Below are positions 8,701-62,698 of a stretch of 64,000 bases of DNA, piece by piece. The notes below the pieces were generated by a model that was not told the DNA's origin, did not search any database, and saw nothing but the letters and a program-made list of their open reading frames with translations. The stretch covers positions 1,364,001 through 1,428,000 of the forward strand of contig NZ_CP033019.1 in assembly GCF_003667705.1 (NCBI RefSeq), given 5' to 3'. A program made the translations under genes and the position numbers. The first letter of the stretch is position 1. Every line of letters starts with the position of its first letter. The DNA is from Janthinobacterium agaricidamnosum. GTDB lineage: Bacteria; Pseudomonadota; Gammaproteobacteria; Burkholderiales; Burkholderiaceae_D.

Positions 8701-9635
8701 GCGGCCATGACGCTGATGCGGGCGCGGATGCCATGCCCCAGGCGCTGGGTCCGCCCGCCGTGGTGCCTGGCGGCGACGGCGCGCTCGCGTATATCTATGC
8801 GGGCGATTTGCAGGGCAATATCTGGCGCCTCGACATGGCCGGCGGGCCGCCGTGGAAGGAGGGCCAGGGGCGCAAGCTCGTGTTTGTCGCGCGCGATGCA
8901 CAGGGCCGGCGCCAGCCCGTGACGCAGCAGCTGAGCGTGGCGTATGCGCCCGGTGGCGGCTATCTGCTGCTGTTCGGCACGGGCAAGCTGGTCGAAGCGG
9001 GCGATACATGGCCATCCGCCTTTCTGTCGCAGTCGTTTTATGCCGTGCACGACGATGTGCGGGAAACATCCCCTACGCGCAGCCGGGCCGACCTGGAACA
9101 GCGCAGTCTGGGCGAGACGACGGGCGGCGTGCGCGTCGACGGCGCCGAACTGCGCTACACGGGCAGCGACGCCATGCGCGGCTGGTATCTCGACTTTCTC
9201 GATACCGCGCAGACGGGCGAGCGCAGCATCAGCATTCCCGTACTGGCCGCCGGCAAGGTACTGTTCAATACCGTCCTGCCGGGGCGCGACGCTTGCGCCA
9301 AGCCGGTCACGCGCCTGTACGTGCTCGATGTGCTGAGCGGCTTTGCCGCCGATGGCGCCGGTGTGGTGCAGGCGGGCGAGCAGACGGGACGCTTGTTCGA
9401 CGGCCTGGCGCGCGCGCCGCCGCTGGCGCTGGAATTGAACAGCACGGTGGGCGCAGCAACGGCGACAGGGCGGGCCGAGGGCCGCAAGGAGCTGGCCGTG
9501 CTGCAACCGGGCTTGCCCGGCGCGGCCAGCGTGGCGGGACTCAAGGTCGTCAGCGCGCCGCTGCCCGCACGGCGCCTCAGCTGGCGCGAAGTGGCGAACT
9601 GGCGCGAATTGCACGAGGCGGCCAAGAAGAAATAA
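5739..9635 (+). CDS. pilY1: PilY1, type IV pilus tip adhesin/assembly factor
   Basis: A 1298-residue secreted protein. A signal-peptide-like N-terminus is followed by the PilY1 opening PNLLLNLSFTH, then GYFHARMCYSYPY and GNFLNWASASMLDIVRYALTGG. The C-terminal half contains the conserved seven-bladed beta-propeller signatures YLGANDGLLHAFDARTGSE (about residue 797) and YAGDLQGNIWRLD (about residue 1018). A Gly/Asp-rich loop ADANGGGDGGHDADAGAD (about residues 980-997) might replace the calcium loop of other PilY1 proteins. The protein sits at the pilus tip with minor pilins and controls extension, adhesion and twitching. The N-terminal half is variable and I see no clear vWA MIDAS motif. Confidence 0.93.
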   Translation: MRAWSFALPSAWCSAWLLLIGLVCLVCGAAVAAAPPVALARADAGLHGARVPPNLLLNLSFTHAAAAAAHGGEYAPQREYLGYFHARMCYSYPYRSKDGVMLPDLRVATAYFSVLKPADVLHGCGGDSFSGNFLNWASASMLDIVRYALTGGDRVIDEVRKTVLQRAYLPDADGPVDFYANPVFFPRKVLHTGVAAATPFAVAQLAIVSCRNRLLFGDASLPPGGSCDAPGIAATHGVFLARVRVCDADEGPLRDDLCLAYGKNYKPVGAVQRLGGRVRVGVFGHLNGVSASAGPVYGGVLRAPLAHVGRQRWTAPDFLLQDNTGAEWNPVNGVFAVQGADQGAGPGGGVTAYINGLGRSNAGHPGAYARAAPLAELLYESLRYLQGRQASAAVPPATAPPAIDDGLPVVTPWSDPQTANCQRHVVVSLGDAGMAGDRYVPGNVPVVPASAGDRARAADGFAPPPFDAMAWTHAVGSLESGGAQGNPAPRPDLAGLEWLADGAGGASYHAAGLAYWSHVQALRPGGKNDGLAKVEHYAGDLRQGDPAGESAATPAATPLLLAAKYGGFLDANGDANPFKSATGSAFDEWSLDGRWPTHYLPGSDPAALIAGLRAAFVSADKGTLAATLPGPALMALASGTEEAYWFHTRMRLADGGMILSRSAFAVGADGALLPGKPLWTAGGQSKTMPDGPSTALRPVYTLDAKGALMPLAWKALDAAQRGAFDGGDGRGEARLAYLLGQRTHEVGQPGGFLRRRSGSLGAAPHGNLLYVGAPGLGMPGAGYGVHRQALLQRRKMLYLGANDGLLHAFDARTGSELFAYLPQALLRAAPAAASTHYSPGPLLDGAAATAEVLALGHWKTVLVSGMGGGAQGVFALDITDPMRFAQDGALWEFTDRDDKLMGSVRAPPAFARINMGGKEGAPAYRDFAIVASGYNNHVNDGKDTTAPASAAAIFLLALDKAPGTPWVIGSNYFRFKVPVADANGGGDGGHDADAGADAMPQALGPPAVVPGGDGALAYIYAGDLQGNIWRLDMAGGPPWKEGQGRKLVFVARDAQGRRQPVTQQLSVAYAPGGGYLLLFGTGKLVEAGDTWPSAFLSQSFYAVHDDVRETSPTRSRADLEQRSLGETTGGVRVDGAELRYTGSDAMRGWYLDFLDTAQTGERSISIPVLAAGKVLFNTVLPGRDACAKPVTRLYVLDVLSGFAADGAGVVQAGEQTGRLFDGLARAPPLALELNSTVGAATATGRAEGRKELAVLQPGLPGAASVAGLKVVSAPLPARRLSWREVANWRELHEAAKKK

Positions 9636-9725
9636 GAGAGGGGCATGGCTGGCGTGTCGCAAGTGACCGGCGTGCAGACCGGCGCCGCGCATCGGCTGGC
9701 GGTTTTTGAGAAGAAGGGAGGTCAG

Positions 9726-10226
9726 ATGGAAATGCTGGCAAGCCGGAACTGGGCCGCTGCAAACGGTCGCGCCCCTGCCGCCGTCCCGGGCTTCAGCCTG
9801 ATCGAACTGCTGGCCGCGCTGGCGATCATGAGCCTGCTGCTGGCGCTGGCCGTGCCCGCTTATCACGGCCATGTCGTGCGGGCCAAGCGTGTGCAGGGGC
9901 AGGCGGCCCTGCTGCGGCTGATGCAGCAGCAGGAGCGCTATTACTCGCAAAACAATCATTATCTGGCGTTTTCCTCGGCCTCGCCGGCGCCGCAGGCGCA
10001 AGCGTTTCCATGGTGGTCTGGCGAAGGGGGCGCGGCCGGCAGTGCGTATGAAATCGAGGCGCTGGCCTGTCCCGGCCTGGCGATCGGGCAATGCGTGCTG
10101 TTGCGCGCCGCGCCGGGCACGTCCAAGGTTGATGCGCAGTTCCAGGATGCCGATTGCGGCGTGCTGTCCTTGAGCAGCACGGGCCAGCGCGGCAGCAGCG
10201 GCCCCGCCAGCCATTGCTGGCGCTAA
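9726..10226 (+). CDS. pilE: PilE-like type IV (minor) pilin
   Basis: A 166-residue protein. GAAGGGAGGT just upstream of the ATG at 9726 decides this start over the in-frame ATG at 9645. A 22-residue leader ends PAAVPG, followed by FSLIELLAALAIMSLLLALAVPAYHGHV, a textbook PilD cleavage site with Phe at +1 and Glu at +5. The body has RVQGQAALLRLMQQQERYYSQNNHY, typical of PilE minor pilins, and two Cys near the C-terminus that may form the D-loop disulphide. It closes the pilV-W-X-Y1-E order found in Pseudomonas-type clusters. Confidence 0.88.
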   Translation: MEMLASRNWAAANGRAPAAVPGFSLIELLAALAIMSLLLALAVPAYHGHVVRAKRVQGQAALLRLMQQQERYYSQNNHYLAFSSASPAPQAQAFPWWSGEGGAAGSAYEIEALACPGLAIGQCVLLRAAPGTSKVDAQFQDADCGVLSLSSTGQRGSSGPASHCWR

Positions 10227-10238
10227 GTAACCCCCAAT

Positions 10239-10370
10239 AAATTATTGTGATTTCTGACTTCCATAACCGGCCCTCTGCGGCGTTGCCCGCTGCTAGCAGT
10301 GCTCGCACTGCGTCGCAGCGGGCGCCTTGCATAGCATCCGGTTCTGTTCGTCATAAATTCACAATAATTT
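10239..10370. repeat. Nested 132-bp intergenic palindrome (MITE-like)
   Basis: The outer arms AAATTATTGTGA (10239-10250) and TCACAATAATTT (10359-10370) are perfect inverted repeats. Inside them AACCGG (10265-10270) pairs with CCGGTT (10338-10343), and CCCGCTGC (10286-10293) with GCAGCGGG (10315-10322), around AGTGCTCGCACT. It separates the pilE-like gene from the fimT-like gene. A related palindrome lies at 16742-16842. Confidence 0.75.
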
Positions 10371-10389
10371 CCTGAGGATTACTTAGGCC

Positions 10390-10983
10390 ATGGCCACGCG
10401 CAAGCGGCCACCGCGGACCGGGCGCACCTTTGGGCGGGCCTTCGGGCACACCATGCTCGAATTGCTGGCCGTGCTGACGATTGCCGCGCTGCTGGCGGCC
10501 GCCGCCATGCCCAGCTTGCAGCAGGTGCTGGCGCGCCAGCAGGTGCGCGCGGCGGCCATGGACTTGTTCTCGGCCATCGAATTGACGCGGGCGCAGGCGA
10601 TGGCGCGCGGACAGCGCGTGCTGTTGATGCCGGCCGGGCCTGGCGGCACGGATTGGCGCACGGGCTGGCTGGTGTTTATCGACCGTAATGCCAGTCTGGC
10701 GTTTGACGACGGCGACGAATTGCTGTTCCGCCAGGGGCCGCTGCCACCGGGCATCACGGCCCAGTTTGCGTTTTCGTCTGCCACGGCGCCGTTTTATATC
10801 GCCTACAATGGCGCAGGACGCAGTTGCAGCGCGACCAATAGCCTGGCGGCGCGCTGGGGGACCTTGTCCCTGGCTTTGGGAAAGCAGGTGCGCCATATTA
10901 AAATCAATATGCTGGGCAGGGTGCGCGTGTGCGACCCGCAGCAGCAGGCGGCCAACTGCAGCGGCGTGGCCGACAGTTCGTAA
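10390..10983 (+). CDS. FimT/FimU (GspH-like) minor pilin
   Basis: A 197-residue pseudopilin. The leader MATRKRPPRTGRTFGRAFG ends in Gly and is followed by HTMLELLAVLTIAALLAAAA, with Glu at +5 but His at +1 instead of Phe. AMDLFSAIELTRAQAMARGQRV is the GspH/FimT helix, and GWLVFIDRNAS with a C-terminal Cys-bearing region (VCDPQQQAANC) follows. These proteins help start pilus assembly. The gene is set apart from the pilE-like gene by the 132-bp palindrome and lies 35 bp before ribD. Confidence 0.87.
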   Translation: MATRKRPPRTGRTFGRAFGHTMLELLAVLTIAALLAAAAMPSLQQVLARQQVRAAAMDLFSAIELTRAQAMARGQRVLLMPAGPGGTDWRTGWLVFIDRNASLAFDDGDELLFRQGPLPPGITAQFAFSSATAPFYIAYNGAGRSCSATNSLAARWGTLSLALGKQVRHIKINMLGRVRVCDPQQQAANCSGVADSS

Positions 10984-11018: not shown

Positions 11019-12122
11019 GTGGAAATACTCAACGATATCGATGGCATGCGCCTGGCGCTGGAATGGGCGGCGCGCGGTTTATACACGACCTCGCCCAATC
11101 CCCGCATCGGCTGCGTGATAGTCCGGGATGGCCAGGTGATCGGTGCCGGCGTGACACAGGCGGCCGGGCAGGATCATGCCGAGGTGCAAGCGCTGGCCAA
11201 TGCGGCAGCGCGCGGCAACGACGTGCGCGGCGCCACCGCCTATGTCACCCTGGAACCGTGCAACCACCATGGCCGCACGCCGCCGTGCTCCGATGCGCTC
11301 GTGCGCGCGGGGCTGGGGCGCGTCGTGGCCGCCATGACGGACCCGAATCCGCTGGTGGCGGGGCAGGGGCTGGCCAAGCTGGAAGCGGCAGGCATCGCCG
11401 TCACCACGGGCGTGCTGGCTGACGAGGCGTATGAAATGAATATCGGCTTCTTTTCGCGCATGCAGCGCGGCAAGTCGTGGGTGCGCATGAAAACGGCGGC
11501 CAGCCTGGATGGCATGACGGCCTTGCACAATGGCCAGAGCCAGTGGATCACGGGGCCGCAGGCGCGCGCCGACGGCCATGCGTGGCGCGCGCGCGCCTGC
11601 GCCATCCTGACGGGCATCGGCACCGTCAAGGCGGACGACCCGCAATTGAACGTGCGCGCCGTCGAGACGCCGCGCCAGCCGCGCCGCATCGTCGTCGACA
11701 GCCGGCTCGACATCAGCCTTGACGCGCGCATCTTGCAGGGCGGCGGCACGTGGATCGTGGCGGCCGTGGCCAACCCGGAAAAGGAAGCGCAGCTGCGCGC
11801 CTTGGGCGCGGAAGTCATCATGTTGCCGAACGCGGCCGGCAAGGTCGACCTGGCCGCGCTGATGCTGGAACTGGGGCGCCGGCAAATCAATGAAGTCCAC
11901 GTCGAGGCCGGCTCCAAGCTGAACGGCTCGCTGATCCGCGAAGGCTGCGTCGACGAGTTGCTGGTCTACCTGGCGCCCACCTTGCTGGGCGACGCGCAAG
12001 GGATGTTTGCCTTGCCCGCATTGACGGATATCAAACAGCAGCGCACCTTGCAATTTCACCAGGTTCAGCAAGTGGGCGAAGATTTGCGTATCCTTGCAAG
12101 ATTCGCCCAGCGCAATAATTAA
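11019..12122 (+). CDS. ribD: Bifunctional riboflavin deaminase/reductase RibD
   Basis: I start it at GTG 11019, giving MEILNDIDGMRLALEWAARG. A more upstream frame start would overlap the fimT-like gene, and ATG 11046 would remove helix 1. The N-terminal deaminase (about residues 1-145) carries HAEVQAL and the zinc motif PCNHHGRTPPC. The C-terminal reductase (about 150-365) has MKTAASLDGMTALHNGQSQW and NEVHVEAGSKLNGSLI. It performs two consecutive steps from the GTP-derived pyrimidine to 5-amino-6-ribitylaminouracil. ribE follows 25 bp downstream. Confidence 0.95.
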   Translation: MEILNDIDGMRLALEWAARGLYTTSPNPRIGCVIVRDGQVIGAGVTQAAGQDHAEVQALANAAARGNDVRGATAYVTLEPCNHHGRTPPCSDALVRAGLGRVVAAMTDPNPLVAGQGLAKLEAAGIAVTTGVLADEAYEMNIGFFSRMQRGKSWVRMKTAASLDGMTALHNGQSQWITGPQARADGHAWRARACAILTGIGTVKADDPQLNVRAVETPRQPRRIVVDSRLDISLDARILQGGGTWIVAAVANPEKEAQLRALGAEVIMLPNAAGKVDLAALMLELGRRQINEVHVEAGSKLNGSLIREGCVDELLVYLAPTLLGDAQGMFALPALTDIKQQRTLQFHQVQQVGEDLRILARFAQRNN

Positions 12123-12147
12123 TACTCACATTTTATAGGGTTAGTTC

Positions 12148-12783
12148 ATGTTTACAGGAATTGTTGCCGCCATTGGCAAGATTGAAACCGTGCAAGCACT
12201 CGAAGGCGGCCTCGACGCAGGCGTGCGCCTGACCATCCACGCGGGCGGCTTGCCGCTGGCCGATGTGGCCCTCGGCGATTCCATCGCCATCAATGGCGCC
12301 TGCATGACGGTGGTGGAAAAGTCGGACACGGGTTTTGCCGTCGATGTCTCGCGCGAAAGCCTCAATTGCACCGTGGGCCTCGATACGACGACGGAAGTGA
12401 ACCTGGAAAAAGCCCTGACCCTGGCCGAGCGCCTGGGCGGCCACCTGGTCTCCGGCCACGTCGACGGCCTGGGCATCGTGCGCAAGTTCGAAGCCGTGGG
12501 CGAATCGTGGGAACTGGTGATCGAAGCACCGCACGAACTGGCGAAATACCTGGCTTTCAAAGGTTCCGTCGTCGTCAATGGCGTGTCGCTGACCGTCAAC
12601 AGAGTGGAAGACCTGGGCGCGGGCGCCGTCAACGGCTGCCGTTTCTCGATCAATTTGATTCCCCACACCATCGCCATGACGACCCTGAAACACTTGACGG
12701 TCGATGGCAAGGTCAACCTGGAAATCGACCTGATCGCCCGCTATGTCGAGCGCATGTTGTCGCTGGACAAGGCTGCCGCCTGA
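12148..12783 (+). CDS. ribE: Riboflavin synthase, alpha subunit
   Basis: A 211-residue protein beginning MFTGIVAAIGKIE, the family hallmark. It has two lumazine-binding repeats. The first contains SIAINGACMTVV, and LGGHLVSGHVDGLG joins it to the second, which has GSVVVNGVSLTVN and LIPHTIAMTTL. It dismutates two molecules of dimethyl-ribityllumazine to riboflavin. It forms an operon with ribD and is followed by a terminator. The same gene is called ribC in some species. Confidence 0.96.
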   Translation: MFTGIVAAIGKIETVQALEGGLDAGVRLTIHAGGLPLADVALGDSIAINGACMTVVEKSDTGFAVDVSRESLNCTVGLDTTTEVNLEKALTLAERLGGHLVSGHVDGLGIVRKFEAVGESWELVIEAPHELAKYLAFKGSVVVNGVSLTVNRVEDLGAGAVNGCRFSINLIPHTIAMTTLKHLTVDGKVNLEIDLIARYVERMLSLDKAAA

Positions 12784-40334: not shown

Positions 40335-40424
40335 GGAAGCGTGGCCGAGTGGTTGAAGGCACTAGTCTTGAAAACTAGCGACGGGTTACACTGTTCGTGA
40401 GTTCGAATCTCACCGCTTCCGCCA
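40335..40424 (+). tRNA. tRNA-Ser (anticodon UGA)
   Basis: The acceptor strands GGAAGCG (40335-40341) and CGCTTCC (40414-40420) pair, with discriminator G and encoded CCA (40422-40424). The anticodon arm CTAGT-CTTGAAA-ACTAG gives anticodon TGA. The long variable arm (about 40379-40399) is typical of tRNA-Ser, and GTTCGAATC is the T loop. Phage integration occurred at its 3' end. Confidence 0.96.
40401..40424. other. Putative attL core at the tRNA-Ser 3' end
   Basis: The T-arm and acceptor end of the tRNA (GTTCGAATCTCACCGCTTCC and GCCA) are the usual crossover for tRNA-Ser integrases. The second copy should mark attR beyond the window. The exact core length cannot be fixed from one end. Confidence 0.55.
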
Positions 40425-40477: not shown

Positions 40478-40504
40478 GAAAATCAACGACTTAGCTTGAT
40501 TTTC
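40478..40504. repeat. Perfect 9-bp inverted repeat between tRNA-Ser and the integrase
   Basis: GAAAATCAA (40478-40486) and TTGATTTTC (40496-40504) are separated by 9 nt. Nearby GAGTATACTC (40442-40451) is a 10-bp palindrome. They may be integrase/excisionase arm sites or a weak terminator for the tRNA. Confidence 0.6.
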
Positions 40505-40579
40505 GGCCTTTTGAATCGCAGATTCGGAGGTATCCAAAAACCCTCTCGCAGAATGACGCGTAGGCGCAATTGTAGGTAT

Positions 40580-40612
40580 GATGCGGTTTTTCTCAAGACC
40601 GTACCTACAGGA
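40580..40612. repeat. Inverted repeat in the integrase leader
   Basis: CGGT...ACCG followed by TACCTACA on the right side pairs with TGTAGGTA starting near 40571, forming an interrupted hairpin that ends about 8 bp before the integrase ATG. It may modulate integrase translation or serve as an operator. Confidence 0.5.
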
Positions 40613-40618
40613 TATCGC

Positions 40619-41797
40619 ATGGCCATCAATACCCTTACCGACGCAGACTGCCGCCGCGCAACGCCGAATGACGGCAAGCTGCGCAAGCTATTCGATGGCC
40701 ACGGCCTGATGCTGGCCGTCCTGCCGAGCGGAAACAAGGTTTGGCGCATGGCCTATCGTAACGACCAGGGCAAGCAGCAAACTGCCGTGATTGGCCCGTA
40801 TCCGCTTGTCGGCCTCAAGGAAGCCCGCGACCGCCGCGACGCTTTGCGTTTGAAGCTGCTCGACGGGGAAGACCTCAAGCCCAAGCGCAAGACGAGCCCA
40901 TCCATTGCCCTTGATGTCGCAATCGATACCTACTGGGCCGGGCGCACGGACATCAGCGCCGGCTACAAGGCAAATGCATTACGCGCGCTGGCCATGTACG
41001 TCTCGCCAACGCTGGGCACGAAAACTGTGCGTGAAATTACCAAGGAAGACTTGATGGACGCGCTGCGCCCGATGGATGCCGCCGGCCTGTCCGTGTACGT
41101 CCGGCGCGTGCGCATGTGGGTGGGCCAGGTTCTCGACTGGTCCATCCAGCACGGCCACTGCGAAGAGAACCCCGCATCGAACATCAATTCGAAGGTCGCA
41201 TTTTCCCGCAAGCCGCGCGAAGGGTTCGCCGCCCTGGCATTGGCCGAGGTGCATCCGTTCATGGAGCGCCTGGACCTGGAAGATGAAATTCAGTCTGTGC
41301 TGGCCTGCAAGCTGCTGGCGTTGACGTGGACGCGCACGGACGAGTTGCGGCGCATGACCTGGGCGGAAGTGGAGGGCGATGTCTGGCGGATACCGGGCAA
41401 GCGCATGAAGAAGGGCCGCGAACATCTGGTGCCGCTGTCATCCCAGGCGCTAGACCTGCTGGCTGAAATGAAGCTGCGTTCGCGGGGTAGCATTTACGTT
41501 TTCCCGAACGACCGGGGCGGCAGCCGCCCCATGAGTGAAAACTCTATCCTCTACCTCATTCACCGTATCGGCTTCAAGGGTAAGATGACCGGCCACGGCT
41601 GGCGCAAGGTCGGTTCCACCTGGGCCAACGAGCACGAATACAACTCGGACCACGTCGAGGTGCAGCTCGCGCACAAGGACGGCGGCGTGCGCGGAGTGTA
41701 CAACTCGGCGGAATACCTGAAGCAGCGCCGCGTAATGCTTCAGGCCTTCGCTGACTGGCTGTTAAAGAAGCCTGATCCCAGCGGCTTGGAGCGTTGA
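40619..41797 (+). CDS. int: Tyrosine recombinase, P4/tRNA-type phage integrase
   Basis: A 392-residue integrase. ATG 40619 gives MAINTLTDADCRRATPNDGK, the normal N-terminal DUF4102 arm-binding domain (RKLFDGHGLMLAVLPSG, KVWRMAYR). The central core-binding domain spans about 105-200. The catalytic domain has the Arg in LTWTRTDELRRMTW, HGWRKVGS (His-x-x-Arg), then LAHKDGGVRGVYNSAEYLKQRR with the last His and the nucleophilic Tyr. It sits 195 bp from tRNA-Ser, the expected position next to attL. Its end overlaps the oppositely oriented AlpA-like gene by 36 bp. Confidence 0.95.
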   Translation: MAINTLTDADCRRATPNDGKLRKLFDGHGLMLAVLPSGNKVWRMAYRNDQGKQQTAVIGPYPLVGLKEARDRRDALRLKLLDGEDLKPKRKTSPSIALDVAIDTYWAGRTDISAGYKANALRALAMYVSPTLGTKTVREITKEDLMDALRPMDAAGLSVYVRRVRMWVGQVLDWSIQHGHCEENPASNINSKVAFSRKPREGFAALALAEVHPFMERLDLEDEIQSVLACKLLALTWTRTDELRRMTWAEVEGDVWRIPGKRMKKGREHLVPLSSQALDLLAEMKLRSRGSIYVFPNDRGGSRPMSENSILYLIHRIGFKGKMTGHGWRKVGSTWANEHEYNSDHVEVQLAHKDGGVRGVYNSAEYLKQRRVMLQAFADWLLKKPDPSGLER

Positions 41798-43413: not shown

Positions 43414-43559
43414 TGCGGTTTTCCTTTCAGTTTGGCGGTAACGCCGCACACGCCGTAGCGGTCGATGGCGGCGTCGATCACGTCGCCGCTGGATGCGGCA
43501 ACCTCAAAAAATTCAAAGCGTTCGGTTTGCGTGCGAACGATCACGGCAAAGGTGCTCAT
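43407..43559 (-). CDS. 50-residue phage early protein
   Basis: MSTFAVIVRTQTERFEFFEV...KLKGKPQC. The ATG overlaps the gpA stop (ATGA at 43556-43559), and its stop overlaps the next start, so it is clearly in a translationally coupled chain. It is too short to assign. The chain of overlaps is the main evidence that it is a gene. Confidence 0.65.
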   Translation of the reverse strand: MSTFAVIVRTQTERFEFFEVAASSGDVIDAAIDRYGVCGVTAKLKGKPQC

Positions 43560-45394
43560 GTGCCATCCCCTTCAAGGGGCGGGGAGTCAGGGACGATCAG
43601 CCGGGGGTACGGGCAGGCGTTGACGGCCGCCCAGGCGGCAATCAGTGCTGCTTTTGCCTCGTCAGGCAGGTTTGGCGTGGGCGCCGCTGGCGGCGTGGCC
43701 GGGGCAGGGCCAACGGGGTGCGTACAGTTATTTACACGAGTCCGAGGAACGGCAACCCCAACAGCCACCCCGTGCCCGCCTGTGGCCTGTACGGGCGTCC
43801 ACGTATGGCGTACGGACTTGAAGACCACGCCGATGAGGTCGCTGCAGCGCACGCCGTAGGGCGTGGTGCGCAGTGTTTCGCCGTAGCGGCCGATGACGAT
43901 TTTTTCGTCCTTGGCCAGGGTGACAACCAGTTCCTTGCGCGGCACCAGGGCGCCGCCCTGGGCGCGCAGGTATTCGGCCCAGCAGGCGCGCTTTTCGCCG
44001 TCGATCTTTTGCACGGCATCCCAGGCGCGGCGCATCGCGGCCGGCGCTTCATTGAGCATGTTTTCCTCGATGCGGCGCAGTTCGCGCCAGACGGTGACGG
44101 GCGCGCCGCCCCATTGCTGGAATTGACGGATGCCCCAGCACGCGGCCCAGGACTCGACGCGCGCTGATGGCGTCAGCTCGACATCGCCTTCGGTGTCGGC
44201 CGTGACGACGTAGCCTTCTTTCGTCTTGTGCTCGGCCACGCCGTCGATGTTCTTGGCCACGTACTTGGCGATGTAGCCGGCGGCGCTGCCCTTGGCCCAG
44301 TCGATGCGTTTCACGTCCAGGCGGCGCGCGAAGGCGCCCGGTTCGCCACGGTCCACGCGCCAGGCGTAGCGCTTCATGATGCGGATGGCGCGGCCGGCCA
44401 CGTCCTGCAGGTGCGCCGTCTTGTATTTCGGGGTGGGGCGCACGAACAGCAGCAGATGCCAATGCGGACAGCCGTCGTGATGCGGCTCGGCGATGCGAAA
44501 GCCGTACAGGCCAATACCCCGACGCGCCAGCGCGGAGCGGCACAGCGACGTCATCTTGCCCAAGTAGGCATTCGCTTCGCGCGGCGTGGAGCCGTCGAAC
44601 TTGTCGTTGGGCTTGCCGCTGTGCTGCATGGCGTGAAAGCGCGATGGGCACGTCCAGGTGATGAAGATTCCCTGGTCGCCGCATTCGCGGGCGATCTGCT
44701 CAAAGCCGTTGATGCGCAACATTAGCTCGCCGCGCCGGATGGCCTTGTTGGCCGTCGTTTTCTCGGCCAGCTCGGCGATGCTGAATTGCTGGCCGTTTTC
44801 GTTCTGCACCAGGGTGGCGGCCAGCGCCGCCGCGTTGCGGCGGTTCTGCGCCAGGCGCGACAGCACGGCGTCATTGCTGGCGTAGGGTTCGCCGCGATAG
44901 TTCACGTAGCCCAGGCGGATGTTGCCCGCTTCAAATGCGCGCTTGACGCGCTTGCGCAACTGGCGGCGCCACCAGCGGGCATCCACCAGGCGGGCGATGG
45001 TGTCGGTCATCGTGTCGAACTCGGGCAGCTCGATGCCATACGAGGCGCATTCGTCTTCCATGATCTGCAAAGCGTGCGTGTCGGACACGGCCATCCACAG
45101 CATTTTGGTGACGCCTGCCGCCGCGCGCTCGGCGGTGGCCACGATGTCGGCGTCGCTCTGCGACAGGTCGACGCCGGCCGGCACGTACAGGCCGGCGAAC
45201 TCGCGCACAAAGCCGGTGGCGACGGACTCATAGACTTTGTACCAGGACGACCAAGCCATCTTGGCCATGGCGGCCTTGATGACGCGGTTGCGCCACTTGT
45301 ATGGAATGCGGGCCAGCTCGGGAGCAAATTGCGCAGATCGCAAGAATGCTTCGTGGCGTTGCGGGGCAGGCAACAGGATTTGTTTAGATTGCAT
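43556..45394 (-). CDS. P2 gpA-like rolling-circle replication initiator endonuclease
   Basis: A 612-residue protein. The HUH motif is in PHHDGCPHWHLLLF (His311 and His313), and the two-tyrosine motif in SAAGYIAKYVAKNID (Tyr374 and Tyr378), as in the Phage_GPA family. An N-terminal helical region (FAPELARIPYKWRNRVIKAA) and a Pro/Ala-rich tail complete it. It should nick the phage origin, which in P2 lies inside gene A, to start rolling-circle replication. It overlaps the genes on both sides. Confidence 0.93.
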   Translation of the reverse strand: MQSKQILLPAPQRHEAFLRSAQFAPELARIPYKWRNRVIKAAMAKMAWSSWYKVYESVATGFVREFAGLYVPAGVDLSQSDADIVATAERAAAGVTKMLWMAVSDTHALQIMEDECASYGIELPEFDTMTDTIARLVDARWWRRQLRKRVKRAFEAGNIRLGYVNYRGEPYASNDAVLSRLAQNRRNAAALAATLVQNENGQQFSIAELAEKTTANKAIRRGELMLRINGFEQIARECGDQGIFITWTCPSRFHAMQHSGKPNDKFDGSTPREANAYLGKMTSLCRSALARRGIGLYGFRIAEPHHDGCPHWHLLLFVRPTPKYKTAHLQDVAGRAIRIMKRYAWRVDRGEPGAFARRLDVKRIDWAKGSAAGYIAKYVAKNIDGVAEHKTKEGYVVTADTEGDVELTPSARVESWAACWGIRQFQQWGGAPVTVWRELRRIEENMLNEAPAAMRRAWDAVQKIDGEKRACWAEYLRAQGGALVPRKELVVTLAKDEKIVIGRYGETLRTTPYGVRCSDLIGVVFKSVRHTWTPVQATGGHGVAVGVAVPRTRVNNCTHPVGPAPATPPAAPTPNLPDEAKAALIAAWAAVNACPYPRLIVPDSPPLEGDGT

Positions 45395-47347: not shown

Positions 47348-47376
47348 ACTATAGTATGTCAAAACATACTTGTCAA
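47348..47376 (-). promoter_or_regulatory. Early phage promoter with consensus -35 and 17-bp spacer
   Basis: On the minus strand TTGACA (47376-47371) and TATAGT (47353-47348) are separated by 17 bp, giving a start near 47341, about 29 bp before the first early gene. The repressor operator fills the spacer. Confidence 0.82.
47353..47370. promoter_or_regulatory. Probable repressor operator AGTATGT-N4-ACATACT
   Basis: A perfect 7-bp inverted repeat (47353-47359 and 47364-47370) with a CAAA centre lies between the -35 and -10 elements of the early promoter and 16 bp before the repressor ATG. Binding there would block early transcription and could autoregulate the repressor. Confidence 0.75.
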
Positions 47377-47385
47377 CGTAGATGT

Positions 47386-47829
47386 ATGGATAAAAATATT
47401 TTTGGTGATAGGTTAAGGCAGGAGCGAACTCGCTTGGGCCTTACACAAGAAGCGTTCGCGGCCATTGGTGGCGTGAAAAAACTCGCACAGATTAATTATG
47501 AGCAAGGGAAGACCTTGCCTGATGCCGGCTACATGGTTTCATTGGCCGGCATAGGAGTAGACATCTCGTATGTGATGCTTGGTGTTCCGACAAGTAATTC
47601 TTTAACTGACGATGAGAACGAGTTGTTAGTGGGCTATCGACGGCTAGATTTGCGCGGGAGAGCACGTGTGCTGGGAGTTGTCGAAGGGATTGCTGACGCA
47701 CCTGCTAGTGCTGTCGCTAAGTCTGGAGAACGGCATACTCAAGTCATTGTTCATGGCGAGATTGGTCAGCAGATCCACGGGAATATAACTGCGCCGCAAA
47801 CGATCCATGTTGGTCGTAAAAAAAAATGA
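47386..47829 (+). CDS. XRE-family phage repressor
   Basis: A 147-residue protein. I use ATG 47386 (MDKNIFGDRLRQERTRLGLT). The HTH domain (about residues 5-65) has RLGLTQEAFAAIGGVKKLAQINYEQGKTLPD. The C-terminal half has no S24 peptidase Ser/Lys dyad and ends in a short beta-rich segment (HGEIGQQIHGNITAPQTIHV) and a basic tail, so RecA-triggered self-cleavage is unlikely. It is divergent from the early operon and shares its regulatory region. Confidence 0.85.
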   Translation: MDKNIFGDRLRQERTRLGLTQEAFAAIGGVKKLAQINYEQGKTLPDAGYMVSLAGIGVDISYVMLGVPTSNSLTDDENELLVGYRRLDLRGRARVLGVVEGIADAPASAVAKSGERHTQVIVHGEIGQQIHGNITAPQTIHVGRKKK

Positions 47830-47975
47830 TCGATGCTGTGCAATGGTCGACACAAATCACTCACCGTTTGGCTGTGCGATACAGCGGATTATCCTCTACT
47901 TCGTAGTGTGCATGGTTGCCGTGTGTTTCAAACGATAGAAAAAACATTCGATGAACTAAATTAATTGGAGATTTC

Positions 47976-49100
47976 ATGGCACTTACAGACGAAATTCAGG
48001 CGACTAGAAAGAGAGTTGTGACCGATGGATATGAAATGTCACTCGGTGAAATTATCAACTTGTACAAGGATGGAGAGCTTGTTATTGACCCAGTTTTCCA
48101 GCGGCTTTTTCGCTGGGGAGATGAGCGAAAAACGCGCTTTATTGAATCATTGATTCTTGGAATTCCTATTCCACCAATTTTTGTTTACCAAGATGAAAAC
48201 GGAGTTTGGGAGCTTATCGATGGGCTTCAGCGCCTATCAACCGTTCTTCAGCTTACTGGCGATCTTAAAGGTGAGCGCGCTGAGCAATTAGGTCCTCTCG
48301 TTTTGAATGGAACTCGATTCTTGCCGAGCCTGGATAAAAAACGTTGGAAAGAGTCTGCTGCAGGTGCAGATGACGGGATTGGGCAAGCGCTGCAGATAGA
48401 GATGAAGCGTGCACGAATTCGCGTGGAAATTCTTAAGGCTGATAGTGATGTAGCCGCGAAATTTGAACTCTTTCAGCGTTTAAATACAGGTGGAGCTGGG
48501 CTATCCGAACAGGAAGTTAGAAACAGTATGGCGGTTTCTTTAAATAGAGAATTTTACAACTGGCTAATGGAACGTTCTGTTGATGTTTCCTTTTTAAAAA
48601 CCACAGATCAAACTGATGTTGCGATAGAGTCGCAAACTGGCGTTGAATTGGCGTTGCGATTCTTTGCATTTAGAAATGTTCCGTATGTGGCTGGTTTGGA
48701 TGTTCATGAGTATCTCGATGATGCCTTGATAAAAATGGCTACTGATGAGAGTTTTAATATGGACTCTGAAAAAGAAGTATTTTCTAAAACATTTAAGTTC
48801 TTAGATGATGCGTTAGGTAACATGGCATTCAAACGCTGGAACGGAGCCACTTTTTCCGGCAAATTCTTAATTTCTGTATTCGAAGTGATGGCTACTGGGG
48901 TTTCTTTGAACCTTGAGCAGATCGAAGCCATGTCGCCAGCAGATCGTCATACATTCCTTAATGAAGTTGCTCGACGGCTGTGGGTTACAGATGCTTTTAC
49001 ACAGAGTTCTGGCGCTGGCATAAGAGGTACGACGCGCCTCTCAAGACTTCTTCCTTTGGCCGCTATTCTCCTGAATCCAACAGGCGCTGGCAATGTCTGA
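47976..49100 (+). CDS. DUF262 (GmrSD N-terminal-like) protein, cargo operon gene 1
   Basis: A 374-residue protein with the ribosome site TTGGAG. The DUF262 signatures are present: VIDPVFQRLFRWGDERKTRF (about residues 37-56), IPIPPIFVYQDENG, the key IDGLQRLSTV (DGLQR at 82-86, a variant of the common DGQQR) and FELFQRLNTGGAGLSEQEVR (163-182). The C-terminal 150 residues are helical and lack the HNH nuclease of full-length GmrD/BrxU-type proteins. DUF262 is a ParB/sulfiredoxin-like NTP-using fold found in phage-defence nucleases. It overlaps the HEPN gene by 8 bp. Base composition is far more AT-rich than the tail genes. Confidence 0.88.
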   Translation: MALTDEIQATRKRVVTDGYEMSLGEIINLYKDGELVIDPVFQRLFRWGDERKTRFIESLILGIPIPPIFVYQDENGVWELIDGLQRLSTVLQLTGDLKGERAEQLGPLVLNGTRFLPSLDKKRWKESAAGADDGIGQALQIEMKRARIRVEILKADSDVAAKFELFQRLNTGGAGLSEQEVRNSMAVSLNREFYNWLMERSVDVSFLKTTDQTDVAIESQTGVELALRFFAFRNVPYVAGLDVHEYLDDALIKMATDESFNMDSEKEVFSKTFKFLDDALGNMAFKRWNGATFSGKFLISVFEVMATGVSLNLEQIEAMSPADRHTFLNEVARRLWVTDAFTQSSGAGIRGTTRLSRLLPLAAILLNPTGAGNV

Positions 49101-49755
49101 TATTAAAACCTTAACCCAGCTTCAGGATGCACTCGATAAAGAGATGGGGTGGAGAGTTAAGGAGATAGGCGCATTTAGATTTGCGTCTAAATCTGTTGGG
49201 CAGGAAAAGAAGTTTTTTATTCGAGCTGGCGTGGCGATTCTTTACGCTCATTGGGAAGGGTTTGTAAAGAATGCATCTGAACATTATTTGAATTATATAA
49301 ATAATCAAGGGCATACCTATAAGGAGCTGCAAAGTTGCTTTTCATTGTTTGGTTTGAAAGGTAAGTTGCAGACTCTTGTGAATTCAAGAAAATCAGGTCC
49401 GAATCTTGAGGCATTTAACTTTATTTTTTCTGAGCTTGAAAAAAAAGCTAATTTGAATATGTCGTCAGCTATTGATACGGAATCAAATTTGACTTCAAAA
49501 GTATTTTCTAATATTGCTGCATCTTTGGATATAAGTACAATCGCTTATGCGACTAAGTTTAATCTTATTGATGAAAGTCTTGTGAATAAGAGAAATAAAG
49601 TCGCGCATGGCGAATATCTGGATTTGGGTGGCCGGGAGTTTGGGGAGCTTGTCGAGGAGATTTTACAGTTGATGCGAGAATATAAAACTGATATAGAAAA
49701 TGCTGCTTCGATGAAGAAATACATAAGATCGACCCCGGAATTTTTGCAAGCATAG
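49093..49755 (+). CDS. HEPN-domain putative RNase (MAE_28990-like), cargo operon gene 2
   Basis: A 220-residue protein. IRAGVAILYAHWEGFVKNAS (about 43-62) is the N-terminal helix typical of MAE_28990/MAE_18760-type HEPN proteins, and VNKRNKVAHGEYLDLG (about 164-179) holds the Arg-x4-His catalytic motif (Arg167, His172). HEPN domains with R-x4-6-H are metal-independent RNases used in toxin-antitoxin and abortive-infection systems. The start overlaps the DUF262 stop, so the two are cotranslated. The gene is AT-rich. The function as effector is inferred. Confidence 0.85.
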   Translation: MSDIKTLTQLQDALDKEMGWRVKEIGAFRFASKSVGQEKKFFIRAGVAILYAHWEGFVKNASEHYLNYINNQGHTYKELQSCFSLFGLKGKLQTLVNSRKSGPNLEAFNFIFSELEKKANLNMSSAIDTESNLTSKVFSNIAASLDISTIAYATKFNLIDESLVNKRNKVAHGEYLDLGGREFGELVEEILQLMREYKTDIENAASMKKYIRSTPEFLQA

Positions 49756-49812
49756 CGGAGAATTTTAGGTGAAAAATTATCCTGCTCCTATTCTACCTAC
49801 CGCGGAAATTCG

Positions 49813-51045
49813 CTAAGGTTCCTCTTTATTTTCGTGGATGATCTCCCGGACCTCCTCAATACGCCTCCATGCATGCTGGGCTGCCCGTTTTGCAGCCTGC
49901 TTGCTCTTGTAAGTATGCTCCAACGTCTTGAGCGTGCCCATGGCGCCGGCCTGTTCCTGCCCCGCCTTTTTCTTCTTCGCCGCCACGTCCTTCCACTTGG
50001 CGACCACGCCCGTGATGCCTTCGTCCGGGTCTTTCTCTTCCTCGCGTTCCGCCTCGACCGCTTCTGTCTTCGTTTCAAATTCCACCCGCGTGGTAAAGCC
50101 GCTGCCGCCCAGGCTGTGCGTGACCTTGACCGATAGCCATTCAGTGGCGTCAATCTCTGGCTTGAAGCCTTGCACCGTCACGGGCGATTGCGGGAACACG
50201 GCTGGGTTGCCCAGGGCCAGGTTCATCTCAAAGGTGGCCAGGCCGCGCAGGATGCGCTGCCATTCGGCCACGGCTGCCGCGCGCGCGTCTGTTTCGTTGG
50301 CGAAGGTGGTGCGCAGGCGCTTGCTGTTGCCGGGCACGCCGGCCACGACGCTGCGGCGGCGCGCGTAGCGCTCGTCGTGCCAGAAGGCGCGCACGCCCGT
50401 GTAGGCGTCGCTTTCGGCGCTGTGGTAGCGGTGGCCGTCGCCCAGGGCGCGCGTGATGGGGATGACCGGAAGCGCCTTGCCGCTGGCGGTGCGGCTCTGG
50501 TTGATGGGAATGAAGAGCAGGGTGTCGTTTTTGACGGTGGCCACCGCGTCGTATTTCCTGCCCAACCGGCGCAGGAAAGCCGCATCGCTTTCGTGGGTCT
50601 GGTCGATGTGCTCGATGGCCGTGTCGCGCAGGCGCGCCGATACGCCCGACGCCAGCTCGTTGCGAAAGGCGATGGCCTCGATGATGGCGCCCAGGGTGGT
50701 CTTGTGGAAGCTGTGTTCCTGCTGCTGTTTGAACGTGTCGATCAGGTTGGCCGACCGCGCGCGCAGGGTGATGGTGTCGGGCGCGCCGCTATGCTCCACC
50801 TCGTCCACGGTGAACTTGCCCATGTCCACCAGGCCAGATGCTTGCCAGCCCAGCGCCAGGGCGATCTGCGCGCCGCGCGGCGGCAGGGCGAGCTTGCCGT
50901 CGCTGTCGTCCAGTGCAATGTCGAGCTGGTCGCTCTCGTCGCCACGGCACAGGGTCAACGTCAAATTAATCAGCCGCGGCGAGACGATGGCCGTCAAATC
51001 CTTGTCCTCGATGCTGACCTTGAAGGCGGGGATATGCTCGCTCAT
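49813..51045 (-). CDS. P2 gpD-like late control / baseplate hub protein
   Basis: A 410-residue protein. I start at ATG 51045 (MSEHIPAFKVSIEDKDLTAI), which overlaps the gpU stop by 4 bp. FRNELASGVSARLRD, HESDAAFLRRLGRKYDAVAT and the SGVRAFWHD-like segment GVRAFWHDERYARRR match the phage_GPD family, which forms the tail hub. The C-terminus is highly charged with a Lys/Glu coiled coil (EREEEKDPDEG, then basic runs). It is the last gene of the tail operon. Confidence 0.9.
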   Translation of the reverse strand: MSEHIPAFKVSIEDKDLTAIVSPRLINLTLTLCRGDESDQLDIALDDSDGKLALPPRGAQIALALGWQASGLVDMGKFTVDEVEHSGAPDTITLRARSANLIDTFKQQQEHSFHKTTLGAIIEAIAFRNELASGVSARLRDTAIEHIDQTHESDAAFLRRLGRKYDAVATVKNDTLLFIPINQSRTASGKALPVIPITRALGDGHRYHSAESDAYTGVRAFWHDERYARRRSVVAGVPGNSKRLRTTFANETDARAAAVAEWQRILRGLATFEMNLALGNPAVFPQSPVTVQGFKPEIDATEWLSVKVTHSLGGSGFTTRVEFETKTEAVEAEREEEKDPDEGITGVVAKWKDVAAKKKKAGQEQAGAMGTLKTLEHTYKSKQAAKRAAQHAWRRIEEVREIIHENKEEP

Positions 51046-51650
51046 TTGAATTTGTCCGCCGCGCTGCCAATGGCGCCGCTGATGCTGCCGCCGATCTTGT
51101 CTTTCATCTCGCTGACCACGCCGCCGTATTTCGACGTGATGCCGCCGACCACATTGCCCACCACGCTGCCCACGGCATTCCTGGCTGCGCCGGCAATGCT
51201 GCTGGTCATGCCGTCGATGCTGAGCATGTTTTTCAGGTCGCCGATGTCGCCCAGGCCGACCATGGCCAGCACGCCGTCGTCGTCGCGCTTGAGTGCAATC
51301 GAGAACTCGACGCGCCGCGCGCCGCCGCTGCCGTCCAGGATGCTGCGGCCCTCGGTCATGTTCGTGATGCGGTACGAGCCGAGAATGCGGCCCGTGCCCT
51401 GGATCAGAATCCACGATTTTCCCGTGTCGGCCATCATGCGCAGCGCATCGAGCGAATACAGGGAGCCGGTCAGCTCCGGCGCCACCCAGCCCGACAGGGT
51501 AATCGTGTCATCACCTGGCCCCACGTACTGGTGCGCATCGCGCAGGCCCACGCGCGCCGTGCTGGCGTGCTTCCATTCCGTTTGCCGCTGCAACTCGTGA
51601 TAGGCCAGGGTCGGCAGGCTGAACACGAACATTCCTAAAATCATCATCAT
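51042..51650 (-). CDS. P2 gpU-like tail protein with extended C-terminus
   Basis: A 202-residue protein starting MMMILGMFVFSLPTLAYHEL. The core TEWKHASTARVGLRDAHQYV and GDDTITLSGWVAPELTG is typical of gpU, and MEFSIAL-like (VEFSIALKRDDD) follows. The C-terminal 60 residues (MTSSIAGAARNAVGSVVGNV) are a Gly/Ala-rich extension longer than in P2. It lies between T and D as in P2. Confidence 0.9.
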   Translation of the reverse strand: MMMILGMFVFSLPTLAYHELQRQTEWKHASTARVGLRDAHQYVGPGDDTITLSGWVAPELTGSLYSLDALRMMADTGKSWILIQGTGRILGSYRITNMTEGRSILDGSGGARRVEFSIALKRDDDGVLAMVGLGDIGDLKNMLSIDGMTSSIAGAARNAVGSVVGNVVGGITSKYGGVVSEMKDKIGGSISGAIGSAADKFK

Positions 51651-55015: not shown

Positions 55016-55525
55016 TTACAGGCCGATGGCCTTGCGGATGGCGGCGTTGGTGTCGCCGCCGCCAAAGTTCTCGGTGCCGCTCATGAAGTCCAGTTCGATG
55101 ACAGTGGCGCCGTCGATCAGCAGCTTGTAATAGCTGCAGGCCATGGTGTATTTATGGGTGGTGTCGTCGCCCATCTTGGCGCCGCCCATATCGATTTCCT
55201 TGTAACGGCCGCGCACGACGACTTCGACGGCGGCGACTGTGCCGTCATCGTCTTCCTGGTAGGCGCCGGCAAAGCGCAATTGCACTGCGCCGTGCGCGTG
55301 CACGCCGTATCGCTTCAAGGCTTCCACGATCAGGCCGCCAGCGCTCCATTCCAGCGACAGCGCCTCGTTGCCAAAGTCCACGGACACGGGGCCGCTCATG
55401 CCGCCGGCGCGGTACTCTTCCATTTTGCGGCTGAGCTTGGGCAGGGTGACTTCGGGCACCATGCCCATGAACGACACGCCGTCCTGGAACAGGTTGAAGT
55501 TTTTCAGTTTGCGGGGCAGGCCCAT
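55016..55525 (-). CDS. P2 gpFII-like major tail tube protein
   Basis: A 169-residue protein MGLPRKLKNFNLFQDGVSFM... with EVTLPKLSRKMEEYRAGGMSG and VRGRYKEIDMGGAKMGDDTT, then YYKLLIDGATVIELDFMSGT, all typical of the FII tube family. It lies between FI and E as in P2. Confidence 0.94.
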   Translation of the reverse strand: MGLPRKLKNFNLFQDGVSFMGMVPEVTLPKLSRKMEEYRAGGMSGPVSVDFGNEALSLEWSAGGLIVEALKRYGVHAHGAVQLRFAGAYQEDDDGTVAAVEVVVRGRYKEIDMGGAKMGDDTTHKYTMACSYYKLLIDGATVIELDFMSGTENFGGGDTNAAIRKAIGL

Positions 55526-55581
55526 AATTTCTCCAGTTATTCAATGCGCCCGCGCTGGCGCGGGCAGGGTGGTGACGGCGA

Positions 55582-61463: not shown

Positions 61464-62698
61464 TGTCCGCTTTCGCTCCAAAGCAGTCCGTCGACAGTTA
61501 AGATTAGACGCCTGGAACCGAACATCCACACTGAAAAGAATCGTGGCGGGCTGCCGAGACTCTGGCCAGTTCAGGCATTGACGATCTTCATCAGTTCGAC
61601 ATGGAATTGATTCCGAAGGAAAGTCCTCATCGCCTCTGTGTACTCGGGAACGGGCTGCAACTCCACGATGGAAAGCAACTCGCAGCCACTCGCAGTGAAC
61701 TGCATACCCTCAAGACGCATCTCGCTACGAGCTTGCCCTTGCTGCTTTGCCAGCATCCAGTGTTCGTTTTGATGAGTCAAAGGCAAGAGCACGGTGCCGT
61801 CTACTCGCTGAGTGATTTGGTAATCGGTGTACCCCGAGAGATCAGATACGACCAACCCATACTCCTGCAGGATCACGCATGCGCCGTATGGCATTCCGTA
61901 AGCAGCGAGTGAGTTTTGACCAATCTGGCCTAGGCCGAGCACGCGGGCATCGACAACACTTCCGGACCGCTGCAAGGACACCGACATCGAGCATGCGAGA
62001 CTGAAGAGATGCGCCGCTCGGTTGTCAAGCTGCGAGATGAGCTTGATCGTCTTCTTTGAGAACGACGCAGGACGGTTGATTTCTCCCGCCAAGATTTTTG
62101 CGAAGATTTTTTGAGCATGCTCGCTACTTACTTGAGCCGCTTCCCCCTCGAAGACGTTCAGCCAGTCTTCATCGACGTCGGAGCGATCTTCGGGCGAATT
62201 GCTGGGTAACTGATCAGGCAGCGGCAGTTTCGCAAGTTCTTGTACAGCCAGCGCGGCAATCTGGTCGACATTAACTCGTTCACGGACTATACGCTGGGCA
62301 AACTTACTTGCGGCAGCTTGAGCGTACGCCGGGTCGACCTTCATCTGCTTTGCGATCTGCGTCTTCGAAGCATCGATCAGGCGAACGCGTGCATTCGACT
62401 CCGCCTTACGTTCTTTGATCGCATTATCAAGTAGGGTCACCGGGTATTCGACTACGGCCGTGGTCAGTCTTCCGAGTACTTTGAACAAACTTCGTCGGAT
62501 TGGAGCAGGTACCCCTGTGGTGACCAGCTCAGTTAAATCTGCCGCGGTGCCAAGCAGTCCCCCGCCATCTTCACTGCCGTCACCTTCCTGATTGTCGTTC
62601 GTGTCCCTGTCGCTCATGCCTGCCCCTTTTGTGGTTATTGCTCCCGCCTTTGATCCTACCAGCGATGGTCCGGAGCGCGAGTCCATGGAAAGCGGACA
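61464..62698. repeat. 11-bp inverted repeats bracketing the DUF2806 gene
   Basis: TGTCCGCTTTC (61464-61474) recurs inverted as GAAAGCGGACA (62688-62698), about 100 bp beyond one end of the gene and 70 bp beyond the other. The gaps 61341-61570 and 62618-62793 contain no other gene. Confidence 0.5.
61571..62617 (-). CDS. DUF2806-like cargo protein
   Basis: A 348-residue protein if started at ATG 62617 (MSDRDTNDNQEGDGSEDGGG); the frame is open to 62686. An acidic disordered N-terminus is followed by a hydrophobic/amphipathic segment (LTTAVVEYPVTLLDNAIKER), then helical DUF2806 features (WLNVFEGEAAQVSSEHAQKI, FAKILAGEINRPASFSKKTI, ISQLDNRAAHLFSLACS). Function of the family is unknown. The gene is less GC-rich than its neighbours, is not a tail gene, and is bracketed by an 11-bp inverted repeat, all of which suggest acquired cargo (moron). 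Confidence 0.8.
   Translation of the reverse strand: MSDRDTNDNQEGDGSEDGGGLLGTAADLTELVTTGVPAPIRRSLFKVLGRLTTAVVEYPVTLLDNAIKERKAESNARVRLIDASKTQIAKQMKVDPAYAQAAASKFAQRIVRERVNVDQIAALAVQELAKLPLPDQLPSNSPEDRSDVDEDWLNVFEGEAAQVSSEHAQKIFAKILAGEINRPASFSKKTIKLISQLDNRAAHLFSLACSMSVSLQRSGSVVDARVLGLGQIGQNSLAAYGMPYGACVILQEYGLVVSDLSGYTDYQITQRVDGTVLLPLTHQNEHWMLAKQQGQARSEMRLEGMQFTASGCELLSIVELQPVPEYTEAMRTFLRNQFHVELMKIVNA

Follow-up and report, generated by a model that had tools for sequence, protein, structure and literature searches.

DUF262 proteins of the GmrSD, BrxU and SspE type are described as reading DNA modification (PMC10952713, PMC11411939), and three motifs, QR, DGxQR and FxxxN, have been named as characteristic of DUF262 (PMC11411939). 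A combination of DUF262 with HEPN is represented by PD-T4-2, which a review places both under DUF262 and under the PF18735 HEPN family (PMC10952713). PD-T4-2 protects Escherichia coli from phage T4, and its deletion from the native strain is reported to raise T4 plaquing strongly (Vassallo 2022, PMC9519451). In addition, operons that join ParB to HEPN genes of the RiboL-PSP and MAE_28990 families are listed in a 2013 survey (Anantharaman et al. 2013, PMC3710099). Here we describe a gene pair in a P2-like prophage of Janthinobacterium agaricidamnosum, contained in a stretch of 64,000 nucleotides (contig NZ_CP033019.1, positions 1,364,001 to 1,428,000 of the forward strand) that we call the window and in whose coordinates its features are given. 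By Pfam match, gene 1 (47976..49100, + strand, ATG start) encodes a DUF262/GmrSD_N protein of 374 amino acids (aa), and gene 2 (49093..49755, + strand, ATG start) a 220-aa HEPN protein of the MAE_28990 and RiboL-PSP families. We hold it moderately probable that the pair is lysogenic cargo that serves as an anti-phage (superinfection) module of two genes, in which a DUF262 nucleoside triphosphatase (NTPase) sensor gates a HEPN ribonuclease (RNase), with an abortive outcome the likelier one.

Both genes are intact and overlap by 8 nucleotides, with gene 1 first. The interval that holds them, from the phage repressor to tail gene D, has a GC content of 0.42, against 0.54-0.68 (mostly >0.60) in the flanking 1-kb prophage windows. 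The original prediction had placed two overlapping AT-rich genes between a phage repressor and a tail gene, and both open reading frames (ORFs) are indeed found there. The closest named proteins, from Janthinobacterium sp. SUN033, are 96-97% identical. When the window's pair is compared with the copy in another prophage (L100), omega, the ratio of nonsynonymous to synonymous substitution rates (dN/dS), comes to 0.054 (gene 1) and 0.053 (gene 2), and under this constraint both genes look functional.

Gene 1 matches the Pfam family GmrSD_N/DUF262 over the cut-off (5.7e-23) and carries QR at residues 42-43, DGxQR at 82-86 and FxxxN at 166-170, with the sequences DGLQR and FQRLNTGG both present. 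The three motifs are invariant in 31/31 and 42/42 aligned DUF262 proteins, in two overlapping sets. In a Pfam scan gene 1 matched no nuclease family, and DUF1524/HNH was matched by neither gene, so the earlier description of gene 1 as a DUF262 core without an HNH domain stands. A sequence profile of gene 1 finds DUF262 proteins of known structure (best 9.9e-7). The predicted structure (pLDDT 87.6) has BrxU, SspE and ParB CTPases as its top matches and comprises a ParB/Srx-like NTPase domain (residues ~10-175) followed by an all-helical domain (~175-370). This model aligns to residues 1-426 of the 580-residue BrxU chain; thus, the C-terminal part of BrxU is without a counterpart in gene 1. Gene 1 shares with GmrSD, BrxU and SspE the DUF262 NTPase domain and its motifs, but differs from these type IV and phosphorothioate (PT)-sensing enzymes in that no C-terminal DUF1524/HNH was found and a separate HEPN protein takes the effector's place.

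Gene 2 matches both HEPN_RiboL-PSP (PF18735; 3.1e-35, 122.3 bits against a cut-off of 28.4) and HEPN_MAE_28990 (PF18737; 6.1e-34, 118.5 bits against a cut-off of 26.8). Its catalytic-type R-x4-H motif is present as R167-NKVA-H172, which, together with the two family matches, bears out the intact HEPN motif that had been read from the sequence. The motif is also conserved among homologues, with R167 and H172 invariant in 32/32 close and 36/36 wider relatives, the wider set being 19-96% identical. Residues E24, R44, E55-G56-F57, A171 and G173 are likewise invariant in the aligned HEPN relatives.

The two genes are almost always found together. Genome loci were found through gene 2, taking the best 80 of 281 relatives, and a DUF262 gene lies directly upstream on the same strand in 79/80 of them, as it does in 17/18 viral loci found in the same way. 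No such neighbour is seen in Limnohabitans (L054), where the HEPN gene stands alone, or at L113, a locus truncated at its edge. Not every gene 1 in the 79 paired loci is complete: L069, L070 and L076 have it broken into two ORFs, and L064 and L074 have only part of it. Loci L001-L008 stand outside this count; L001 and L002 correspond to the contigs that also hold L100 and L104, and L003-L008 were left out. Since these first loci were picked by likeness to gene 2, 398 genomes sampled evenly across the phylum were added. PF18737 is over its cut-off in 12 of these genomes (own genome included), with a DUF262 gene directly upstream in 12/12, and 3 loci fall under the cut-off, none with a DUF262 gene. 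Within the bacterial family a gene 2 relative is present in 10/294 genomes, with a DUF262 partner in 8 of the 9 others. L012 has no DUF262 gene within its 1.5 kb flank. Spacing ranges from a 29-nucleotide overlap to a 20-nucleotide gap in 93/94 delimited pairs, the sole outlier being the split L076 (L054, L070, L074 and L113 do not enter this table). The genes also co-diverge: over 115 pairs the gene 1 and gene 2 distance matrices have a correlation of r 0.935, the highest value reached in 1000 permutations being 0.219. Inheritance as a unit suffices to explain this correlation, which is no proof of contact between the proteins. The labelled rows of the DUF262 tree span ten phyla, and outside the prophage group the pair stands behind a repressor or regulator, in the same orientation, in Vibrio phage PE004 and Terrisporobacter phage TVCOM_ph1. 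Conservation of the pair thus reaches well beyond this strain. The observation is confirmed, and an omega of ~0.05 in both genes and nearly fixed pairing elsewhere mark the pair as more than a chance arrangement. At the Limnohabitans locus the unpartnered gene 2 relative (9941-10654, + strand) lies near a divergent small helix-turn-helix (HTH)-like gene (9390-9755, - strand), and it might be informative on how a HEPN protein alone is tolerated.

PD-T4-2, compared here through one locus (L155), has the same general layout: a DUF262 gene and directly after it, in the same orientation, a HEPN gene, with an R-x4-H motif and no DUF1524. The original prediction knew of no characterised system of this composition, a claim that has to be given up, as PD-T4-2 is a DUF262 and HEPN pair that is described as blocking T4 in E. 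coli (PMC9519451, PMC10952713). The two pairs nevertheless differ in their proteins. At L155, PD-T4-2_A matches GmrSD_N and the model PDLC04027 (527 bits), while gene 1, 26% identical to a PD-T4-2_A, reaches 105 bits on PDLC04027 (8e-31) and scores higher on NsnA (179 bits). PD-T4-2_B has 167 aa at L155, against 220 in gene 2, and a weak PF18735 match under the cut-off (1.7e-3); it bears RNRVAH, whose R, A and H are invariant in 27/27 aligned relatives, and T4 protection is known for PD-T4-2. Gene 2 gave no PD-T4-2_B match up to E 0.1, the PD-T4-2_B model PDLC04028 was not found in the whole genome, and in BLASTP and hhalign comparisons of gene 2 with PD-T4-2_B the alignment is limited to the stretch around RN[K/R]VAH. 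PADLOC and the review had both pointed to PD-T4-2, but with gene 2 failing the PD-T4-2_B models as well as the pairwise tests the pair was rejected as PD-T4-2 proper, which is kept as its closest analogue. In the DUF262 tree the PD-T4-2_A branch is very long (6.21), so that the tree leaves its joining point unsettled.

The best PADLOC name for gene 1 is NsnA (4.1e-53). Nsn was also set aside, as gene 2 is without an NsnB match and none of the genome's six NsnB-like matches falls within the window; hits to the NsnB model occur in 14/14 control genomes, and it would seem to behave as a general ATPase model would. A literature search for NsnA with phage returned nothing on defence by title, and no meaning of Nsn was found. 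No characterised system of this exact subfamily was found in searches of an open-licence library. We read the pair as a widespread form of a known kind, in which a ParB/Srx-fold NTPase sensor would gate a HEPN RNase; by sequence models it is not PD-T4-2.

Further relatives are found in the 2013 survey and in other P2-like elements. The survey lists the same HEPN families by name (PF18735/PF18737), with ParB (DUF262) written in one entry; its entry for MAE_28990 adds a DNA methylase, of which there is none in the window's cargo site, and the entries report no test of function (PMC3710099). In E. coli P2-like prophages (P24B2; strains 1002W03, VG12A2 and 2015C-4136CT1), a DUF262 gene is followed by a MAE_28990 HEPN gene, as here. 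Unlike the window's pair, these pairs sit between the replication endonuclease and portal genes, a hotspot described by Vassallo 2022 (PMC9519451), and the identity to gene 1 is 26-27%. The E. coli pair is uncommon, with 7/5426 genomes matching one such pair by DNA. A P2-related phage of Vibrionaceae has a hotspot beside cI, as in the window, but it is described as lying between cI and integrase rather than between repressor and tail gene D (Rousset et al. 2022, PMC9122126). In four E. coli P2-like loci (L118, L122, L123 and L124) the pair faces a convergent DNA cytosine methyltransferase, marked as frameshifted in L124. A general link to a DNA methyltransferase was considered and rejected: one is present in the E. 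coli P2-like loci and one Terrisporobacter phage, and otherwise not among the neighbour families listed.

The genomic position of the pair provides a second line of evidence. The cargo site (47830..49812, 1983 bp, GC 0.42) runs from the 3' end of the repressor gene to the 3' end of gene D. On its left is a repressor-like HTH protein (47356..47829, + strand; PHROG transcriptional regulator, 4e-12) whose Pfam HTH matches are just below the cut-off, and on its right is tail gene D (49813..51414, - strand), a baseplate hub (Phage_GPD) identified by Pfam and PHROG. For comparison we took 19 related prophages of the same genus from a list of 47 gene D matches; they are the 20 that rank highest below the window's own gene, less G136:C32. 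Gene D is kept at 90-95% identity in these prophages and the repressor at 40-83%. The repressor-to-D interval varies from 876 to 5500 bp across 20/20 loci, window included, with a standard deviation (SD) of 1142; four other intervals in the same loci have SDs of 0-157. The 19 inserts are AT-rich (GC 0.37-0.50), and 50/58 of the ORFs picked in them are on the repressor's strand. The host genome itself has three such prophages whose inserts differ, one being almost gene-free. The site is therefore a cargo hotspot.

The content of this hotspot was sampled by scanning 18 insert ORFs from 14 prophages, out of 64 ORFs of at least 66 aa listed for 20 prophages besides the window's. Strong PADLOC matches were obtained for 3/18: bSEFIR (4.7e-105) and HEC-08 (8.7e-116) in the L163 insert and a kinase in that of L169 (mad6 1.3e-35, PD-T4-6 3.1e-28). 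Four further ORFs have a toxin-, nuclease- or abortive-infection-type Pfam domain over the cut-off, namely putAbiC (L166), RES with HEPN_RES_NTD1 (L162), HNH_2 (L175) and RelA_SpoT (L100). Another 6/18 are without a match in Pfam or PADLOC, and the remainder have other or weak matches. In sister prophage L100 the RelA/SpoT-domain gene (11064-12380, - strand) adjoins a copy of the same DUF262-HEPN pair at the same site; cargo modules can thus stack. The predicted sensor/effector module gains from this setting, from the conserved pairing and from the intact motifs; the novelty of its composition has been lost to PD-T4-2. Two of the three findings that the original prediction named as refuting it, a pair confined to this strain and HEPN residues that vary among homologues, did not emerge, and the prediction is partly supported. 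The repressor-to-gene-D site is also a place to seek further defence genes in this bacterial genus.

An anti-phage role of the pair is likely, as judged from sequence, and a mechanism can be proposed. The gene 1 protein, a ParB/Srx-fold NTPase, would probably recognise incoming phage DNA, perhaps modified, or an infection-induced state, and recognition would lead to an NTP-driven change in it. The gene 2 HEPN ribonuclease, made from the coupled frame and presumably bound by the gene 1 protein, would be kept inactive before infection. After release it would cut RNA and arrest the developing phage, and the cell itself would most likely be sacrificed (abortive infection). Gene content, motifs, constraint, pairing, co-divergence and genomic position are observed in the sequence data, whereas the binding of the two proteins, their NTPase and RNase activities, the trigger and the outcome we infer from the DUF262 and HEPN families. 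If true, the pair gives the DUF262 sensors, familiar above all from type IV enzymes that cut DNA, a common effector choice in the form of an RNase, and offers a compact two-gene system for asking how a ParB/Srx NTPase gates a HEPN enzyme. A broader view, which we put forward only tentatively and regard as doubtful, is that of a widespread immune class in which a type IV-like, DNA-reading DUF262 NTPase without a DNA nuclease would switch a separate HEPN RNase, with PD-T4-2 a distant sister bearing a smaller HEPN protein.

Several observations weigh against a defence module of this kind. Gene 2 is absent from the 50,697 phage records searched, in which gene 1 matches 21 records, all at <60% identity. 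In a survey of the 137 nearest ORFs of at least 100 aa (a crude longest-ORF rule, at genome loci with both genes delimited), for which 25 of 122 matched families are listed, the commonest families are Uma2 (5 members) and Phage_integrase (4); among the families listed, mobile-DNA families are rare (<=6/137) and no defence family dominates. One gene 2 relative, that of L054, has no DUF262 partner. The top-ranked solved chains for the gene 2 model are HEPN toxins, but the fold match is weak. Finally, PADLOC 2.0.0 gives only weak matches for gene 2 (Cas13a 0.002, C3a76 0.009), which, alongside the 12/12 pairing in the phylum sample, suggests that the pair can escape defence annotation.

Three other explanations were considered. 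HEPN RNases are toxins of known toxin-antitoxin (TA) modules, and the pair could be a plain type II module in which gene 2 is an RNase toxin and gene 1 its antitoxin, kept for prophage stability and with defence as a by-product. The genes overlap with the presumed antitoxin first, spacing is tight in the 93/94 delimited pairs, solved HEPN/MNT toxin structures are among the weak fold matches of the gene 2 model, and the 2013 survey proposes a TA role for a MAE_18760 HEPN with a ParA-like ATPase (PMC3710099). We nevertheless consider such a module unlikely: the 374 aa of gene 1, with an invariant NTPase pocket, exceed the needs of a mere binder, sister prophages hold defence-type genes at the same site, and the HEPN gene of L054 stands alone. 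The choice between a suicidal and a sparing outcome raises a different alternative. In defence systems, host RNA is for the most part also a target of HEPN effectors, which counts against direct interference, whereby gene 1 would resemble a type IV enzyme in marking modified phage DNA and gene 2 would cut transcripts made from that DNA, with the cell spared. No methyltransferase is present in the window's cargo site or among the 18 families matched by at least two of the 137 neighbours (families with single hits being listed in part), and we think this alternative distinctly improbable, even though GmrSD/BrxU/SspE-type proteins are described as reading DNA modification (PMC10952713, PMC11411939) and a methyltransferase or methylase accompanies relatives in E. 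coli P2-like loci, a Terrisporobacter phage and the 2013 survey (PMC3710099).

The pair could also have no part in defence, as a lysogeny-linked regulator or as a passenger without a present role. It is on the repressor's strand, perhaps in its transcript, with neither a terminator-like nor a promoter-like site found between repressor and gene 1, and a gene 2 relative occurs in no other same-genus genome of the family sample. Such an explanation is very unlikely in view of the low omega in both genes, the spread over ten phyla and the defence-type genes that sister prophages carry at this position. The gated sensor/effector module remains the reading that we prefer.

The P2-like setting called in the original prediction is evident from the remaining genes of the element. 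A P2 gpA-type replication initiator (43556..45394, - strand) marks it as P2-like, and besides D the gene set includes tape measure, sheath, head closure, integrase and a transcriptional regulator that we take to be of the Ogr kind. The integrase gene (40496..41797, + strand) comes directly after a tRNA-Ser gene (40335-40424). No exact 16-60-base repeat of the tRNA-Ser 3' end region was found >5 kb downstream, on the chromosome as far as position 84000 in window coordinates, which leaves the far end of the prophage undefined. A 371-aa DUF2806 gene (61574-62686, - strand; 1.6e-26), without a PHROG match, lies where the GC content drops for a second time (0.54), at what may be another cargo site of the prophage. 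An ARAGORN call of a tRNA-Arg (gcg) at 55478-55574 (+ strand) overlaps the start of the head-closure ORF (55016-55525, - strand) and is possibly false. At the repressor-to-D site, 7/19 related prophages (L156, L162, L164, L165, L170, L171 and L173) carry a family of 221-233-aa proteins, of which the sole scanned member (L156) has no Pfam or PADLOC match. Judged by eye, the N-terminus of this family (VGQAVxGNxxEAP) resembles the C-terminus of the repressor (IGQQIHGNITAPQ).
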